Positions 55,733 through 63,891 of a stretch of 64,000 bases of DNA are shown here, in pieces. The notes under the pieces were generated by a model. That model saw only the letters and a program-made list of their open reading frames with translations. It ran no database searches and was not told where the DNA came from. Each line of letters starts with the position of its first letter. Position 1 is the first letter of the stretch. Source of the stretch: Fervidobacterium nodosum Rt17-B1 (GTDB lineage: Bacteria; Thermotogota; Thermotogae; Thermotogales; Fervidobacteriaceae); contig NC_009718.1 of the NCBI RefSeq assembly GCF_000017545.1, positions 186,001 through 250,000 of the forward strand. Direction: 5' to 3'. Made by a program: the position numbers and the translations under genes.

Positions 55733-56992
55733 ATGGAACAAAAGTATGTTAATCCAAAAGTTTCAAGAATTTCTCAAGACACTCTAATTGTCGGTATTGA
55801 TGTTGCTAAAAGAAATCATTGGGTTAGGATGACTGATTATCGTGGAATTGATTTGATTAGCCCTTTCAAGATTAATAATACCATAGATGGTATTAAAATG
55901 TTAGAGGAAAAAATAAGAATTATTAAGCAAAAGGAAGGGTTAAACAACGTAATCTTAGGCATGGAACCATCAGGGCATTATTGGAAGGTTTTAGCTTGGC
56001 AAATGAAATCTAACGAGCAAGTAAATTATCTTGTTGGAGTAAATCCATATCATGTGAAGAAAAGCAAAGAATTTGATGATAACTCACCTAGTAAAAATGA
56101 CAAGAAAGATGCAGGATTAATAGCCAAATTAATCAAAGATGGAAGATATTTCGATATGCATTTATCAAATGATGTGTATAGTGAGTTAAAAGTATTAACC
56201 ACGACAAGGGAACAATTAGTAAGTAAGAGAAAAAATTCAAAAAATATTGTAATAGCTATAATAGACGAATACTTTCCTGAGTATGAGAAGATATACAAAA
56301 ACATATTTTCGGAAGGTTCGATGAAATTATTAAAGACCTATCCATTTCCGGAAGAGATATTAAGAGTTGGAGTAGAAGAAATAGAAAGTGTATTGAAAGA
56401 ATCGACAAAGGGGAAAGACTGGAAAAGTAGGGCGCGGAAGATATACGAAGCAGCGAGAGAATCGGTAGGAGTAAGAGCAGGGCAAAAAAGTGCGAAAATG
56501 AAATTAAGGATGCTATTGGAAGAAATAGAGCTATTAACAAGACAAATTCAAGAGCTAGAAGAAGAGATGAAAAAAATGATAGAAGAAACAGAAGAAGGGG
56601 AATATATAGAAAGTGTGCCAGGGATAGGAACGGTAATGACAGCCACGATATTAGGAGAGACAGGAGGGTTAAGCAGGTTTAAAAGCTGGAAACAAATAAG
56701 GAAATTAGCTGGATTGAACCTGTACGAAGAAAGTTCTGGAGAACACAAAGGAAAAACGCGGATAACAAAAAGAGGGCGGCCGTTACTGAGGAAAATAATA
56801 TACTTGATGGCAAAAACGGTGATAAGACATAACCGTGAAATAATGGAAAAATATTTAAAACTGAGGAAAAGAGAAAAAAATCCATTAAAAGAGACACAAG
56901 CATTGATAGCAATAGGATTGAAAATGATAAGGATAATATTCAAGTTAGTGAAAAGCAAGACAAGATATGAACCGGAGAGAGTATATGTATAG
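55733..56992 (+). CDS. IS110-family transposase (DEDD recombinase)
   Basis: A full-length 419-residue transposase. The N-terminal RuvC-like DEDD domain has Asp23 (VGIDVAK), Glu78 (GMEPSGHYW), Asp123 and Asp126 (KNDKKDAGLI). A coiled-coil-like, Glu/Lys-rich segment spans about 255-290. The C-terminal Tnp domain has SVPGIGTVMTATIL and a serine in SSGEHKG (near 335) that is the expected nucleophile. No frameshift is seen, so the element may be active. IS110 enzymes are guided by an RNA encoded in the element's own non-coding end. Confidence 0.94.
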   Translation: MEQKYVNPKVSRISQDTLIVGIDVAKRNHWVRMTDYRGIDLISPFKINNTIDGIKMLEEKIRIIKQKEGLNNVILGMEPSGHYWKVLAWQMKSNEQVNYLVGVNPYHVKKSKEFDDNSPSKNDKKDAGLIAKLIKDGRYFDMHLSNDVYSELKVLTTTREQLVSKRKNSKNIVIAIIDEYFPEYEKIYKNIFSEGSMKLLKTYPFPEEILRVGVEEIESVLKESTKGKDWKSRARKIYEAARESVGVRAGQKSAKMKLRMLLEEIELLTRQIQELEEEMKKMIEETEEGEYIESVPGIGTVMTATILGETGGLSRFKSWKQIRKLAGLNLYEESSGEHKGKTRITKRGRPLLRKIIYLMAKTVIRHNREIMEKYLKLRKREKNPLKETQALIAIGLKMIRIIFKLVKSKTRYEPERVYV

Positions 56993-58393: not shown

Positions 58394-60154
58394 ATGGTAA
58401 CAGTTTATATCAACGACAAGCCTTATGAAGTTTCAGAAAACAAAACAGTATTAGAAGTTGCACAAGAGCTTGGATACTACATTCCAACACTTTGTCATCA
58501 TCCAGAACTTGAGCCAATTGGTGCTTGTAGAATCTGTGTTGTTGAAGTTGAGGGAGCAAGAACACTCCAACCAGCGTGTACAACGAAAGTGTCAGATGGA
58601 ATGAAAATAAGGACAAACACAGAAAGAGTAGAAAGTGCAGTCAAATTTAATCTTTCATTGATTATGGCAAATCATCCACACGAATGTATGTACTGTGAGG
58701 CGGATGGTAGATGTGAACTCCAGAAGCTTGTCCATATGTACGATATCAAACCTATATTTGGTGTTAATGTTGATATGGATAAAGAAATTGATATCAGTAG
58801 TCCATCTATAAACAGAGAGCTTTCAAAATGTATTAAGTGTCAAAGATGTGTGAGAGTTTGTAGTGAAATACAAGGAATGAACATTTATTCAATGGTAGAC
58901 AGAGGTTATGAATCTCTTCCAGAGACAGAGTTTGGTATACCAGTATATGAGACAAATTGTATAAGCTGTGGACAATGTGCCTACTTATGTCCTGTTGGAG
59001 CTATCTACGAAGCTCCAGATTGGAAGAAAGTGCTTAATTTACTTAACAAGAAAGAACCAGGAAAAGTTTACGTTGCTCAAACAGCCCCATCTGTCCGTGT
59101 TGCGATAGGTGAAGAATTTGGGGTGGAGCCAGGTACAGTTAGTACGGGAAAGATGGTTGCTGCTCTTAGAAGACTTGGATTTGATTATGTTTTCGATACA
59201 AACTTTGCTGCAGACTTGACAATTATGGAGGAAGGTTACGAACTAATCCACAGATTGCAAAACGGTGGAAAGTTCCCAATGTTCACTTCGTGTTGTCCAG
59301 GTTGGGTTAATGAGATGGAAAAAGAATGGCCAGAATTAAGAGAAAATCTTTCTACAGCAAAATCTCCACAACAGATGATGAGTAGCGTTGTTAAGACATA
59401 TTTTGCACAAAAGATAGGTGTAAAACCAGAAGATATAGTTATGGTTTCCGTTATGCCTTGTACGGCAAAGAAAGATGAAATTACAAGACCACAACAGCTT
59501 GTTGACGGTATAAAAGTGACGGATTACGTTATTACGACAAGAGAACTTGGCAAGCTTATAAAACTCAAAGGAATTCCATTTGTAAACTTACCAGAAGAAC
59601 AATACGATAGTCCACTTGGTACATCCACAGGTGCCGGAGCATTGTTTGGTGTTACCGGTGGTGTTATGGAGGCAGCACTTAGAACCGCATATGAAGTTAT
59701 CACAGGTGAAAAATTACCAAAACTCGTATTTGATTCTGTGAGGGGACTTGATGGCGTAAGAGAAGCTGAAATTGATATTAAAGGTAAGAAATTAAGAGTA
59801 GCCATTGCGCACGGTATGGCAAATGTAAAGAGATTACTTGCTGAAATGAAAGAAGGAAAGAGATACTACGACTTTGTCGAGATAATGGCGTGTTACGGTG
59901 GATGTATAGGTGGAGGCGGACAGCCAAAGAACCTCGACCCAGATATACTTAAGAAAAGAGCAGCTGCTATTTATTCTATCGATGAGCTTAGCGTACTTAG
60001 AAGGTCGCATGAGAACCCAGATATAATAAAACTTTACGAAGAGTTCCTCGAAAAACCAAACAGCCACAAGGCTCACCACTTATTGCATACTCATTACACC
60101 GATAGGTCAAGAGCCGTGAGAAAAGCGCAAAAGCAACAAGAAAAAGTAAACTAA
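58394..60154 (+). CDS. Second [FeFe]-hydrogenase (single-gene, NADH-type N-terminus)
   Basis: A 586-residue hydrogenase. It has an N-terminal [2Fe-2S] domain (CHHPELEPIGACRICV, CTTKVS), His/Cys cluster and ferredoxin region (CIKCQRCVRVC, CISCGQCAYLCP) and complete H-cluster motifs TSCCPGW, MPCTAKK and [14 protein letters not shown]. Unlike HydA of the operon it lacks the C-terminal thioredoxin-like domain, and no HydB/HydC partners lie beside it. Start ATG at 58394 after GGAGGTG. It sits upstream of hydG/hydE on the same strand. Confidence 0.93.
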   Translation: MVTVYINDKPYEVSENKTVLEVAQELGYYIPTLCHHPELEPIGACRICVVEVEGARTLQPACTTKVSDGMKIRTNTERVESAVKFNLSLIMANHPHECMYCEADGRCELQKLVHMYDIKPIFGVNVDMDKEIDISSPSINRELSKCIKCQRCVRVCSEIQGMNIYSMVDRGYESLPETEFGIPVYETNCISCGQCAYLCPVGAIYEAPDWKKVLNLLNKKEPGKVYVAQTAPSVRVAIGEEFGVEPGTVSTGKMVAALRRLGFDYVFDTNFAADLTIMEEGYELIHRLQNGGKFPMFTSCCPGWVNEMEKEWPELRENLSTAKSPQQMMSSVVKTYFAQKIGVKPEDIVMVSVMPCTAKKDEITRPQQLVDGIKVTDYVITTRELGKLIKLKGIPFVNLPEEQYDSPLGTSTGAGALFGVTGGVMEAALRTAYEVITGEKLPKLVFDSVRGLDGVREAEIDIKGKKLRVAIAHGMANVKRLLAEMKEGKRYYDFVEIMACYGGCIGGGGQPKNLDPDILKKRAAAIYSIDELSVLRRSHENPDIIKLYEEFLEKPNSHKAHHLLHTHYTDRSRAVRKAQKQQEKVN

Positions 60155-60169
60155 TAAAATGGTAAATCA

Positions 60170-60203
60170 GTTCGGCAGTGGTTCAACACTGCCGAACTTT
60201 TTT
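60170..60203 (+). terminator. Terminator after the second hydrogenase
   Basis: Perfect 11-base stem GTTCGGCAGTG / CACTGCCGAAC with a six-base loop and T-run. Confidence 0.92.
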
Positions 60204-60316
60204 ATTTTTTACCACGTAAGAAAGAGATTGACAGAGAAAATTACAAATATTTTTGAATATATGTCAATCAAGACTGAAATTGTACAAATTCTAATGTATG
60301 TTATTTTATTCTCTTG

Positions 60317-60325
60317 TGATAAAAT
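60317..60325 (+). promoter_or_regulatory. Candidate promoter of the leader RNA
   Basis: TGATAAAAT, an extended -10 without a good -35. A transcript from near 60332 would carry about 205 bases of leader before the first start codon. A TTGACA at 60330-60335 has no matching -10. Confidence 0.4.
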
Positions 60326-60391
60326 TTTATTGACAAGTGAATAATTTCTCAAAGTGGTATGTCCTTTCTGAGATGGAGGAGTTGTATCTGA

Positions 60392-60502
60392 CATCGAGGA
60401 AAGAGGAATGATTGGATAGAATTTGTTTGTGAAAAAATTATCATTCTATTTTTTGCTTTTCAATCAGCCTCTTTCCTTGATGCAAAGGAAAGAGGCTTTT
60501 TT
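60392..60502 (+). promoter_or_regulatory. Leader RNA with exclusive antiterminator and terminator stems
   Basis: Segment 60468-60482 can pair with 60392-60406 over 15 bases (one G-T pair), extended by TGATTG/CAATCA (60409-60414 with 60461-60466) around an inner hairpin (60416-60422 with 60443-60449). Alternatively its first part, as AGCCTCTTTCCTT (60466-60478), pairs with 60485-60497 to form a 13-base stem followed by T6, a rho-independent terminator. Both cannot form together. It lies about 36 bases before the hydG-hydE operon. Confidence 0.8.
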
Positions 60503-60538
60503 CATTTTGTGTAAATACGCTATGGGGAGGTTTTTGGA

Positions 60539-60793
60539 ATGGTTGAACAAAATGAAAGATATTACACAGTGGACATCATTGTAATTGATAGGAACAACGC
60601 TTATTCTAAGGTAAATGAATTGCTTCATCAATATTCGGATATTATAAAACTTCGGGTTGGGTATCCTGTTCCAGACGAAAATATCGCGATAGTTTTTTTG
60701 ATTGTTAAAGCTACGAACGATATTGTGGGTGCATTTACTGGAAAGATAGGAAATATAAAGGGTGTAAAGGTTAAAAGTATAGCCGTTAATTAA
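60539..60793 (+). CDS. TM1266-type ACT-like putative hydrogenase regulator
   Basis: An 84-residue ferredoxin-like/ACT-fold protein: YYTVDIIVIDRNNAYSKVNE, HQYSDIIKLRVGYPV, KATNDIVGAFTGKIG and GVKVKS. It matches the family annotated as iron-only hydrogenase system regulator that accompanies hydG and hydE in Thermotoga and clostridia. It has no DNA-binding motif, so ligand sensing or protein contact is more likely. Start after GGGGAGG. Confidence 0.82.
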   Translation: MVEQNERYYTVDIIVIDRNNAYSKVNELLHQYSDIIKLRVGYPVPDENIAIVFLIVKATNDIVGAFTGKIGNIKGVKVKSIAVN

Positions 60794-60821: not shown

Positions 60822-62231
60822 ATGTTTGTGTTCACGAAAGAGTTGGAAAGTGAAAAGACGTTCATCCCAGAAGATGAAATATTCGAGTTACTCGAAACAA
60901 CAAAAAATCCAGATTCTGTTAGAGTTAGAGAAATCCTTGAGAAATCTTTGAATAAGAATCGCTTAGAGCCAGAAGAAGTGGCAACTTTACTAAACGTTGA
61001 AGACAAAGACTTGCTTGAAGAGATTTTTCATGCTGCAAGGACTTTAAAAGAAAGGATATACGGTAACAGGATAGTTTTATTCGCACCTTTGTACATTGGA
61101 AATGATTGTGTTAATGATTGTGTTTACTGCGGTTTCCGTACGTCAAATCCAGAGGTGTACCGCAAAACTCTGACTTTTGATGAATTGAGGAATGAAGTTA
61201 AAGCTTTGGTGTCTAAAGGGCATAAGAGGTTGATAGTTGTCTATGGTGAGCATCCTCGTTACAGCCCAGAGTTTATAGCCGAAACTATAAGGATAATATA
61301 TGATACTAAAGTCGGAAACGGTGAAATAAGAAGGGTAAATGTCAATGCTGCACCACAGACTGTTGAAGGGTATAAAATCATAAAAGAAGCGGGAATAGGT
61401 ACGTTCCAGATATTCCAAGAAACTTATCATCAGCCAACTTATAAGAAATTACACCCACGTGGTCCAAAATCAAATTACGCTTGGCGATTGTATGGGCTTG
61501 ATAGAGCTATGTTAGCTGGTATAGATGATGTTGGTATTGGAGCTTTATTTGGATTGTACGATTGGAAGTATGAAGTTATGGGACTTATTTACCATACGAT
61601 ACACCTCGAGGAAAGATTCGGTGTGGGTCCTCACACAATATCTTTCCCAAGGATAGAACCAGCAGTTGGTAGTGAGATATCGTATAATCCACCACACAGA
61701 GTTAGTGACGAGAATTTCAAAAAGTTGGTTGCAATAATTAGACTTGCCGTTCCATACACAGGTATGATTCTTACCGCAAGGGAACCGGCGGAATTGAGAA
61801 AAGAAGTACTGAAAATGGGTGTGTCTCAGATAGATGGTGGTTCAAGCATAGGTATAGGTTCGTACTCTCAAGAAGATCCGGAAAAAGTTAAGAAAAGTCA
61901 ATTCATTTTAGGTGATAACCGAACTCTTGAAGAGGTTATTTACGATCTTCTCAAAGAGGGATATATTCCTTCGTTCTGTACAGCGTGTTACAGAATGGGA
62001 AGAACTGGAGAGCACTTTATGGAATTCGCAATCCCTGGTTTTGTTAAAAGGTTCTGCACGCCTAACGCTCTTTTCACGTTGAGAGAATATTTAAACGATT
62101 ACGCTTCAGAAGAGACAAAAAGATTGGGTCATGAACTCATAAAGACCGAGCTTGAAAGAGTTAACAATAGGGATTTAGTTGAGAAGTACCTCCAAAGAAT
62201 CGATAGTGGTGAGAGAGATGTCAGATTTTAA
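60822..62231 (+). CDS. hydG: [FeFe]-hydrogenase maturase HydG
   Basis: Radical SAM tyrosine lyase that makes the CO and CN ligands of the H-cluster. The SAM cluster motif CVNDCVYC is near residue 95, and the C-terminal auxiliary cluster motif CTACYRMGRTGEHFME followed by a later Cys is present. 469 residues is normal. ATG at 60822 after TTGGAGGTG. hydF, the scaffold GTPase, is not in this window. Confidence 0.95.
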   Translation: MFVFTKELESEKTFIPEDEIFELLETTKNPDSVRVREILEKSLNKNRLEPEEVATLLNVEDKDLLEEIFHAARTLKERIYGNRIVLFAPLYIGNDCVNDCVYCGFRTSNPEVYRKTLTFDELRNEVKALVSKGHKRLIVVYGEHPRYSPEFIAETIRIIYDTKVGNGEIRRVNVNAAPQTVEGYKIIKEAGIGTFQIFQETYHQPTYKKLHPRGPKSNYAWRLYGLDRAMLAGIDDVGIGALFGLYDWKYEVMGLIYHTIHLEERFGVGPHTISFPRIEPAVGSEISYNPPHRVSDENFKKLVAIIRLAVPYTGMILTAREPAELRKEVLKMGVSQIDGGSSIGIGSYSQEDPEKVKKSQFILGDNRTLEEVIYDLLKEGYIPSFCTACYRMGRTGEHFMEFAIPGFVKRFCTPNALFTLREYLNDYASEETKRLGHELIKTELERVNNRDLVEKYLQRIDSGERDVRF

Positions 62232-62478
62232 AACACTCAGTAAGTATCTTGAAGATGTTGCTAAAATGCTTAACACAAAGGTGTGGATATGTGAAAAAAT
62301 AGGTCGAAGGTTGTCCTGCATTGCACGAGCAGGTGAAGAAAGTTACAGTGAAGCATATCAAGTTTACGAAGATGATAAATACGTGGTTTTTGCTGAAAGG
62401 CAATTAAATAATTCCGAGGAAAGCGAGTTGATAATAGATTTCATCGTTAAGTATTTAAAAGTAGGTGATTGTAAATGA
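62218..62478 (+). CDS. Small protein between hydG and hydE
   Basis: An 86-residue acidic protein that overlaps both neighbours (14 bases with hydG, 4 with hydE), so translation is coupled. It has two cysteines (WICEKIGRRLSC, and the final DCK) and a mixed alpha/beta pattern. I do not recognise a domain. A small gene occupies the same place in Thermotoga maritima, as far as I recall, which would suggest a role in hydrogenase maturation. Confidence 0.72.
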   Translation: MSDFKTLSKYLEDVAKMLNTKVWICEKIGRRLSCIARAGEESYSEAYQVYEDDKYVVFAERQLNNSEESELIIDFIVKYLKVGDCK

Positions 62479-63524
62479 TAGAAATAAAAAAGATACAAAA
62501 TGTTGATTTGGATTATCTAACTTATCTCTTGAGTACAGATGAACATAACGAAGAGATATTTAAAGTAGCTGATGAGGTAAGAAGAAAATACGTAGGTACA
62601 GAAGTACATCTGAGAGCTATTATTGAATTTTCAAATTACTGTTCACAGCATTGTCTTTACTGTGGTCTGAGGGCTGAGAATAGAAATTTAAATAGGTATA
62701 GAATGACGGAGGAAGAAATTTTAGAAAGAGCAAGGTTGATTGCCAAACTTGGTATAAAGACAATAGTGTTGCAGTCTGGAGAGGACCCTTACTATACAAC
62801 GGAAAGGATAAGTTACCTTATTACTGAGATAAAAAAGCTCGATGTAGCTATAACTTTGAGCATAGGGGAAAGAGATTTTGAAGAGTACAAAATTTGGAAG
62901 GAACTTGGTGCTGATAGATACCTTATGCGTCATGAGACAGCTTCACCAGAATTGTACGCAAAACTCCATCCAGGTGATTCTTTCGAGAATAGAAAAGCAC
63001 ACCTATTTGAGTTGAAAAGACTCGGGTATGAAACGGGAGCAGGCTGTATGGTTGGGCTTCCCGGTCAAACACCTTACGATATGGCTTTAGATTTGGCTTT
63101 TCTCAAAGAATTGGATGCGGATATGATAGGTATTGGACCGTTTATACCAAATCCAGATACACCTCTTGCGAATCAAGGTGGAGGAACATTAAAAGACACT
63201 TTAAAAATGGTGGCACTTGCACGAATTGTAGTACCAACAGCAAATATACCAGCTACAACAGCGTTGGGTTCTATAGACCCGTTTGGTAGGCAAATGGGAT
63301 TAAAGTGTGGAGCGAATGTGATTATGCCGAATTTAACACCGAATCCCTACAGACCAAATTACTCCCTATATCCCGGTAAAATCTGCTTATTTGAAAAAGA
63401 TACCGCCTGCGTCGAGTGTACAAAAGCGATGATTAAAGGTGTGGGACTTGTCGTTGGAGAAGGTTACGGATACAGAAGAAAAATAAATATTGAAGAATAT
63501 AAAATAACAGCTGTTGGTGATTAA
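62475..63524 (+). CDS. hydE: [FeFe]-hydrogenase maturase HydE
   Basis: Radical SAM enzyme of the BioB-like group that works on the dithiolate/organometallic precursor of the H-cluster. Cluster motif CSQHCLYC, then GLRAENRNLNRYRM, GYETGAGCMVGLPGQT, DMIGIGPFIPNPDTPL and a C-terminal Cys pair (CLFEKDTACVEC) as in HydE proteins. 349 residues. Starts 4 bases before the end of the small gene. Confidence 0.95.
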   Translation: MIEIKKIQNVDLDYLTYLLSTDEHNEEIFKVADEVRRKYVGTEVHLRAIIEFSNYCSQHCLYCGLRAENRNLNRYRMTEEEILERARLIAKLGIKTIVLQSGEDPYYTTERISYLITEIKKLDVAITLSIGERDFEEYKIWKELGADRYLMRHETASPELYAKLHPGDSFENRKAHLFELKRLGYETGAGCMVGLPGQTPYDMALDLAFLKELDADMIGIGPFIPNPDTPLANQGGGTLKDTLKMVALARIVVPTANIPATTALGSIDPFGRQMGLKCGANVIMPNLTPNPYRPNYSLYPGKICLFEKDTACVECTKAMIKGVGLVVGEGYGYRRKINIEEYKITAVGD

Positions 63525-63575: not shown

Positions 63576-63845
63576 TTAAACTTCTAATTTCATGTATTTT
63601 GCTTGTACTCCATCGATACTGTTTAGTTTTTGGCAGAGTTCTTCGTGTTTTGACTCATCGTCTACGAGTTCTAATATGATAAGTCCAACTGGTGAGCAAT
63701 ACTGACCTGCACCTTCGTGTAATCCAAGACGCGTTTTGATGTAACAACCGTACTCTGTCAAAAGTTTTTGAACTTCCACTGCGGCTTGTTCGCGTTTGTC
63801 AACTAAAATAGCCATAACTGTTCTTACTGTAATATCTTTCGCCAT
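63576..63845 (-). CDS. Second small ACT-like protein near the hydrogenase genes
   Basis: An 89-residue protein of the same size class as the TM1266-like gene: VRTVMAILVDKREQAAVEVQ, a central GCYIKTRLGLHEGAGQYCSP, then IILELVDDESKHEELCQKLN and GVQAKYMKLEV. The beta-alpha-beta pattern suggests a ferredoxin-like/ACT fold; it contains three cysteines. Start at the ATG at 63845, 7 bases after GGGGG. Function unknown; position beside hydGE suggests redox or hydrogenase control. Confidence 0.72.
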   Translation of the reverse strand: MAKDITVRTVMAILVDKREQAAVEVQKLLTEYGCYIKTRLGLHEGAGQYCSPVGLIILELVDDESKHEELCQKLNSIDGVQAKYMKLEV

Positions 63846-63891
63846 AGTCCATCCCCCTTTCAAAAGGTTGAAATAGAGTAAATCAATTAAA

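Follow-up and report, generated by a model that had tools for sequence, protein, structure and literature searches.

A symmetric RNA hairpin in the leaders of [FeFe]-hydrogenase maturation genes: a candidate cis-regulatory class with TM1266-family proteins as proposed partners

The stretch of DNA analysed here (the window) comprises 64,000 nucleotides of the Fervidobacterium nodosum Rt17-B1 genome (NC_009718.1, positions 186,001 to 250,000). The leader of its H-cluster maturation operon carries a hairpin, termed H1, which appears to belong to an ancient class of cis-acting RNA found in at least four groups of bacteria. In the overall reading that we put forward, whose chances we judge to be evenly balanced, TM1266, as a stand-alone sensor protein, would bind H1 and switch off the maturation of [FeFe] hydrogenase upon a signal related to the H-cluster. 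The structure of H1, the exclusivity of the pairings around it, their conservation, the gene context and the co-occurrence with TM1266 come from comparison of sequences across genomes. The features of the locus are the following (window coordinates):

60320–60325, + strand: possible −10 hexamer TAAAAT (TG-A-TAAAAT) of a putative leader promoter, a weak assignment from sequence
60364–60403, + strand: H1, the conserved element (minimum-energy fold, covariance-model match, covariation)
60392–60482, + strand: predicted antiterminator (60392–60406 with 60468–60482; extension 60409–60419/60456–60466), excluding H1 and the terminator
60466–60497, + strand: intrinsic terminator, 13 bp followed by T6
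60524–60530, + strand: Shine-Dalgarno sequence GGGGAGG of the TM1266 gene (sequence)
60539–60793, + strand: first gene of the operon, for an 84-aa TM1266-family protein that is proposed to bind H1 as a regulator (TIGR03959, PF21699, AlphaFold)
60822–62231, + strand: hydG (TIGR03955, 545 bits)
62179–62478, + strand: ORF of 99 aa with no Pfam or NCBIfam match, identified in relatives by tblastn
62475–63524, + strand: hydE (TIGR03956, 370 bits)
63576–63863, − strand: second TM1266-like gene (CPF_0552 family, NF052672), convergent to hydE

The leader occupies the segment between the hydA terminator (60169–60198) and the start of the TM1266 gene (60539). Folding of the 222-nt region is better than that of 198 from 200 dinucleotide shuffles (z −2.7), and two terminator-like sites were found in the region against 0.1 expected, the second one being the hydA terminator. 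The main arms of the antiterminator are 15 nt long and 93% complementary, the remaining position being a G-U, while the terminator arms (60466–60478/60485–60497) form 13 perfect pairs around a 6-nt loop followed by T6. The 3′ half of H1 supplies the antiterminator with its 5′ strand. Folded alone, H1 adopts a minimum-energy structure (−16.1 kcal/mol) that is exactly the one derived by comparison. The sum of H1 and terminator (−21.6 kcal/mol) is −37.7 kcal/mol, nearly equal to the −35.2 kcal/mol of the antiterminator, in agreement with the expectation for a switch. The three structures very probably constitute an exclusive switch in which H1 and the terminator co-exist. The sequence-only reading had described two exclusive pairings (15 plus 6 bases upstream versus a 13-bp terminator with T6) and these are real. 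Its interpretation as an attenuation leader of the H-cluster maturation operon stands, but it missed the upstream hairpin H1; the upstream sensing part that it placed at 60332–60391 is retained with its limits corrected to 60364–60403. The putative promoter at 60320–60325 was not reported by a pattern scan of the region. Concerning the neighbouring genes, the 99-aa ORF is kept between hydG and hydE across Thermotogota with roughly 30–55% identity, a TM1266 paralogue lies near the hyd locus in most genomes of the genus Fervidobacterium, and an ORF upstream of the locus (55733–56992, + strand) resembles by eye an IS110-type transposase.

The sequence of H1 in the window is CTTTCT-GA-GATG-GA-GGA(GTTGTA)TCT-GA-CATC-GA-GGAAAG. 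Its outer (60364–60369/60398–60403), 4-bp (60372–60375/60392–60395) and inner (60378–60380/60387–60389) helices are separated by two tandem G·A internal loops, according to the consensus order outer helix, GA/RA, 4-bp helix, RA/GA, inner helix. At the sequence level, the element is CUGA-N4-RAGG occurring twice with N4s complementary to each other, here GATG and CATC, and each half-site forms a tandem G·A-type loop whose closing pairs are a C-G that never varies and a U·G that hardly does. H1 is thus two-fold symmetric, about 40 nt long, and has no junction or pseudoknot. The internal loops do not share the free variation of the N4 helix (GGUG/CACC, GAUG/CAUC, GGCU/GGCC, GGUC/GACC, AAUG/CAUU, AACC/GGUU, GUCC/GGAC, CUUA/UAAG, UAAA/UUUA, UUGC/GCAA and others). 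Covariation was assessed in 17 family sites gathered by sequence pattern and upstream position with no explicit pairing requirement: 98.6% of the cells are paired versus 92.6% after shuffling, a level reached by none of 500 shuffles, and six of 13 pairs are changed on both sides. Among 74 aligned sites 110 doubly changed cells were counted versus 37 expected from shuffles. A set of 41 sites from four groups scored 0.55 versus 0.21, a comparison that leans towards pairing because some of these sites were picked by it. All of these shuffles leave phylogeny in, related genomes not being independent. The relatives keep both pairings of the leader, as the sequence-only reading had proposed to check together with covariation, and its alternative of a duplication restricted to this strain does not hold.

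A covariance model built from the 17 family sites (R1) was run over 103 Thermotogota genomes and gave matches in 65. The window H1 scores 64.0 bits (E 3.2e-13 in its own genome; the sequence is in the training set and the E-values of models R1 to R3 are rough). When gene context is considered and one later match (L137) added, the element is found in 64 of 70 HydG-positive genomes versus none of 33 HydG-negative ones; the R1 matches in G031 and G055 were judged by their context to be due to chance. The same judgement was made for matches in coding or unrelated sequence without hyd genes (L082, L084, L103, L110, L112, L113, L309, L310, L318). Within Thermotogota the element precedes TM1266-hydG-hydE(-hydF), hydF alone (L044, L076, L078, L080, L097, L100, L108), or hydA followed by TM1266 (L027, L029, L031), and lies directly 5′ of hydG in L101, L105, L111 and L137 and of hydE in L104. 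Scanning 84,980 species for the pattern yielded 62 matches. When those outside Thermotogota were evaluated with a model made from Thermotogota sites only (R2), two stood out, L155 (Ignavibacteriales) and L188 (Neomarinimicrobiota), and no other match outside Thermotogota has a TM1266 gene close by. With R2, the phylum to which L188 belongs then gave 20 sites, the class of L155 eight and Clostridia four, 28 of these 32 being directly 5′ of TM1266 or hydG. The training set of a general model (R3, 41 sequences) included some clostridial sites that had been selected for their position and pairing. Of 398 clostridial genomes, 40 contained R3 matches, 43 sites in all. Hyd genes adjoin 38 of the 43 sites (30 of 35 outside the training set), and the other five are 5′ of other genes or inside coding sequence. 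Outside Thermotogota the element is nearly always directly 5′ of TM1266, hydG, hydE, hydF or hydA. By these model matches, H1 spans at least four groups, Thermotogota, Neomarinimicrobiota, an Ignavibacteria-related class and Clostridia, in a genome sampling that is uneven and made up in part of metagenome assemblies. Some loci have two copies: at L254/L273 one operon has an element before TM1266 and another between TM1266 and hydG, and in L303 (G131:C177) two copies flank two genes inserted within the leader 5′ of TM1266, one of them nucleotidyltransferase-like by eye, the element being duplicated.

Three types of wiring connect H1 to expression. In most Thermotogota and Neomarinimicrobiota its 3′ strand has a second partner in the 5′ terminator arm, as in the window, where H1 precedes the TM1266/hyd genes and is predicted to exclude the antiterminator of the expression platform. 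In 46 of 48 Thermotogota leaders the native antiterminator arms pair better than arms exchanged among species (mean −24.6 versus −17.6 kcal/mol). Three clostridial loci (L276, L280, L283) are wired differently, the 3′ terminator arm being complementary to the 5′ strand of H1; the pairing in the L276 group is AAGUCAGGA with UCCUGACUU (−14.2 kcal/mol). The third arrangement, found in family f8 and several Clostridia (L086–L100, L278, L291, L298–L301), has the 3′ half-site continuing into a Shine-Dalgarno sequence AAGGAGG, located a few bases 5′ of the start codon, and a terminator is dispensable there. The automated terminator search gave no hairpin or a wrong one in L057, L062, L067, L104, L137 and some Clostridia. 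In four f8 loci (L093, L095, L098, L099) the Shine-Dalgarno of the element serves a mini-ORF ending in or near a terminator-like hairpin 5′ of hydG, and translation of this mini-ORF may control termination.

The structure of all three wirings indicates that formed H1 probably corresponds to the OFF state, and we infer the sign of control, the binding of a protein and the signal as follows. The nascent RNA would fold H1 first, with its two identical half-sites around the 4-bp helix. If H1 is held, its 3′ strand would be blocked, the terminator would fold and transcription would stop before TM1266-hydG-hydE (OFF). If H1 is free, the longer antiterminator would invade it, no terminator would form and the operon would be read (ON). 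In the lineages where H1 contains or abuts the Shine-Dalgarno, held H1 would block translation instead. The holder would most probably be a TM1266-family protein acting in a PyrR-like manner, the first gene of the operon then encoding a feedback repressor that could act in trans on the separate hydF, hydA or hydE units. The signal sensed by TM1266 might be a product or intermediate of H-cluster assembly, which is a guess.

TM1266 is proposed as the binder of H1 on account of its co-occurrence with the element, its position as first gene and the two-fold symmetry of H1, since an RNA whose two half-sites are identical and symmetrically placed suits an oligomer that is itself symmetric. We incline, with moderate confidence, to the view from these comparative data that TM1266 binds H1 and represses as PyrR does. 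The window protein scores 102.7 bits against TIGR03959 (cut-off 60.8) and matches PF21699. A structure of TM1266 was released in 2006 and the protein is still named a putative regulator. The AlphaFold model (pLDDT 94) matches this structure, 2NZC, with a TM score of 0.91, the nearest structures being 2NZC, IlvN and the C-terminal domain of NikR. It is an ACT/NikR-C-type domain without the DNA-binding part of NikR and is probably oligomeric. It counts against the proposal that few of its basic residues are nearly invariant and that the nearest relatives of the fold are mostly ligand sensors, not RNA binders. TM1266 is the commonest first gene downstream of the element and is present in 65 of the 70 HydG-positive Thermotogota genomes. 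Five genomes of one genus (G066–G070) lack both TM1266 and the element while their congener G071 has both, a joint absence that may reflect a single deletion. More informative are f9, f8-g20 and G101, where the element is before hydG or hydF and TM1266 is elsewhere without an element, and G103, which has the element and TM1266 with no hydG found, possibly due to an incomplete assembly. No element was found in the clostridial genome G105, which has hydG and no TM1266. Against the proposal, none was detectable in G023, which has both TM1266 and hydG. For Clostridia, in the shared sample, all 33 genomes with an R3 match have TM1266 versus 176 of 348 overall. Most clostridial genomes with TM1266 have no R3 match, and either the element is more diverged in Clostridia, where several half-matching hairpins are visible, or TM1266 has other targets.

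The main rival of the TM1266 reading is a small-molecule riboswitch, which we consider rather unlikely. H1 itself would bind an ion or small molecule connected with H-cluster biosynthesis, such as SAM, tyrosine, iron or an H-cluster intermediate, with no protein needed, TM1266 being merely a regulated gene. That the GA/RA loops are deeply conserved between phyla while the helices change is typical of riboswitches, as is the use of both termination and RBS occlusion, and genes other than hyd are occasionally downstream: element-like hairpins precede ECF transporter S-components and an SsuC/TauC-type ABC transporter at three clostridial loci (L315:300–345, L320:332–377, L321:295–340), which may be additional members of the regulon and might give a clue to the signal. 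However, a dimeric protein is the better match for a small symmetric hairpin with neither junction nor pseudoknot, the presence of the element goes with TM1266 rather than with hydG in G103 and G066–G070, and no Rfam riboswitch matches it. Taken with gene order and co-occurrence, the symmetry of H1 favours a TM1266-family protein over small-molecule sensing. Binding of H1 by a different protein or by a trans-acting RNA, to which the shortage of R3 matches among clostridial TM1266 genomes lends some weight, is improbable, for no other gene is so regularly first downstream and TM1266 is in all element-bearing genomes checked. Attenuation through translation of a leader peptide was rejected as largely refuted by the alignment: an ATG just 5′ of H1 in the window (about 60359) does open a 10-codon frame ending inside H1, and mini-ORFs precede the terminator at some f8 loci (L095, L098), but start codon and frame are missing in relatives with the same H1 and the compensatory changes track base pairing, not codons. 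We give next to no credence to the CTGA-N4-RAGG repeat being a DNA operator for a transcription factor, despite its two direct repeats near the promoter region, a reading largely refuted because the N4s covary as base pairs and further opposed by the variable loop length and by the location of the element inside the transcript, overlapping the antiterminator or Shine-Dalgarno.

To our knowledge, the way H-cluster assembly is matched to hydrogenase demand is poorly known. The work on H1 provides a precise candidate binding site together with a regulon, and predicts the direction of control. If the proposal is correct, a widespread class of regulatory RNA is missing from Rfam, and H1 could serve as a means of steering biohydrogen production by Thermotoga, Fervidobacterium and Clostridia.

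In agreement with the sequence-only reading, which recognised no riboswitch or T-box in the leader, no Rfam 15 family reached its gathering score over the window leader or in eight relatives, where the sole match was a neighbouring tmRNA gene (in L096). Weak matches to the L20 leader (33 bits, 60117–60209), BTnc201 (32.9 bits) and PyrR (27.3 bits) were discarded, all being far below the cut-off. In the open-licence literature we found no leader RNA for hydG, hydF or TM1266 and no target or mechanism for the TM1266 family (TIGR03959, PF21699; PDB 2NZC), annotated as putative regulator; the main text of two large structured-RNA surveys does not mention hydrogenase genes. The RAT hairpin of the BglG/LicT systems is also short and pseudo-symmetric, has two internal loops and binds a small dimeric domain; it overlaps a terminator and is stabilised to prevent termination. 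H1 shares this general shape, but it has a different consensus, overlaps the antiterminator and not the terminator (60364–60403 versus 60466–60497), excludes the former and goes with termination. The same genes are controlled by Rex, which binds upstream of a CopG-annotated gene and hydG in Caldicellulosiruptor bescii (PMC6391272), as a DNA-level redox repressor, in a layer separate from the H1 RNA. A Rex-like operator (AAGTGAATAATTTCTCAA, 60335–60352) has three mismatches and is unproven; the window has 17 Rex-like matches versus 10 expected, a number reached by four of 100 shuffles and not clearly enriched. A 19-nt inverted repeat (60306–60344) lies over the putative −10 and overlaps this sequence, and a GTGAATATTTTC-like sequence recurs here in Fervidobacterium relatives. 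The closest parallel is the PyrR attenuator of pyr operons (mechanism in PMC4347634; RF00515), where a hairpin excludes an antiterminator that in turn excludes a terminator. There as here, the proposed binder comes from the first gene of the operon and its binding would give OFF. The leader has this anti-antiterminator/antiterminator/terminator architecture and would work like RF00515 without being a member (27.3 bits, gathering cut-off 54): its hairpin is made of two identical CUGA-N4-RAGG half-sites, its genes serve H-cluster maturation and its proposed protein, TM1266, is unrelated to PyrR. The architecture is of a known kind, an attenuator with an anti-antiterminator, and the RNA class, the genes it precedes and its proposed partner are apparently undescribed.
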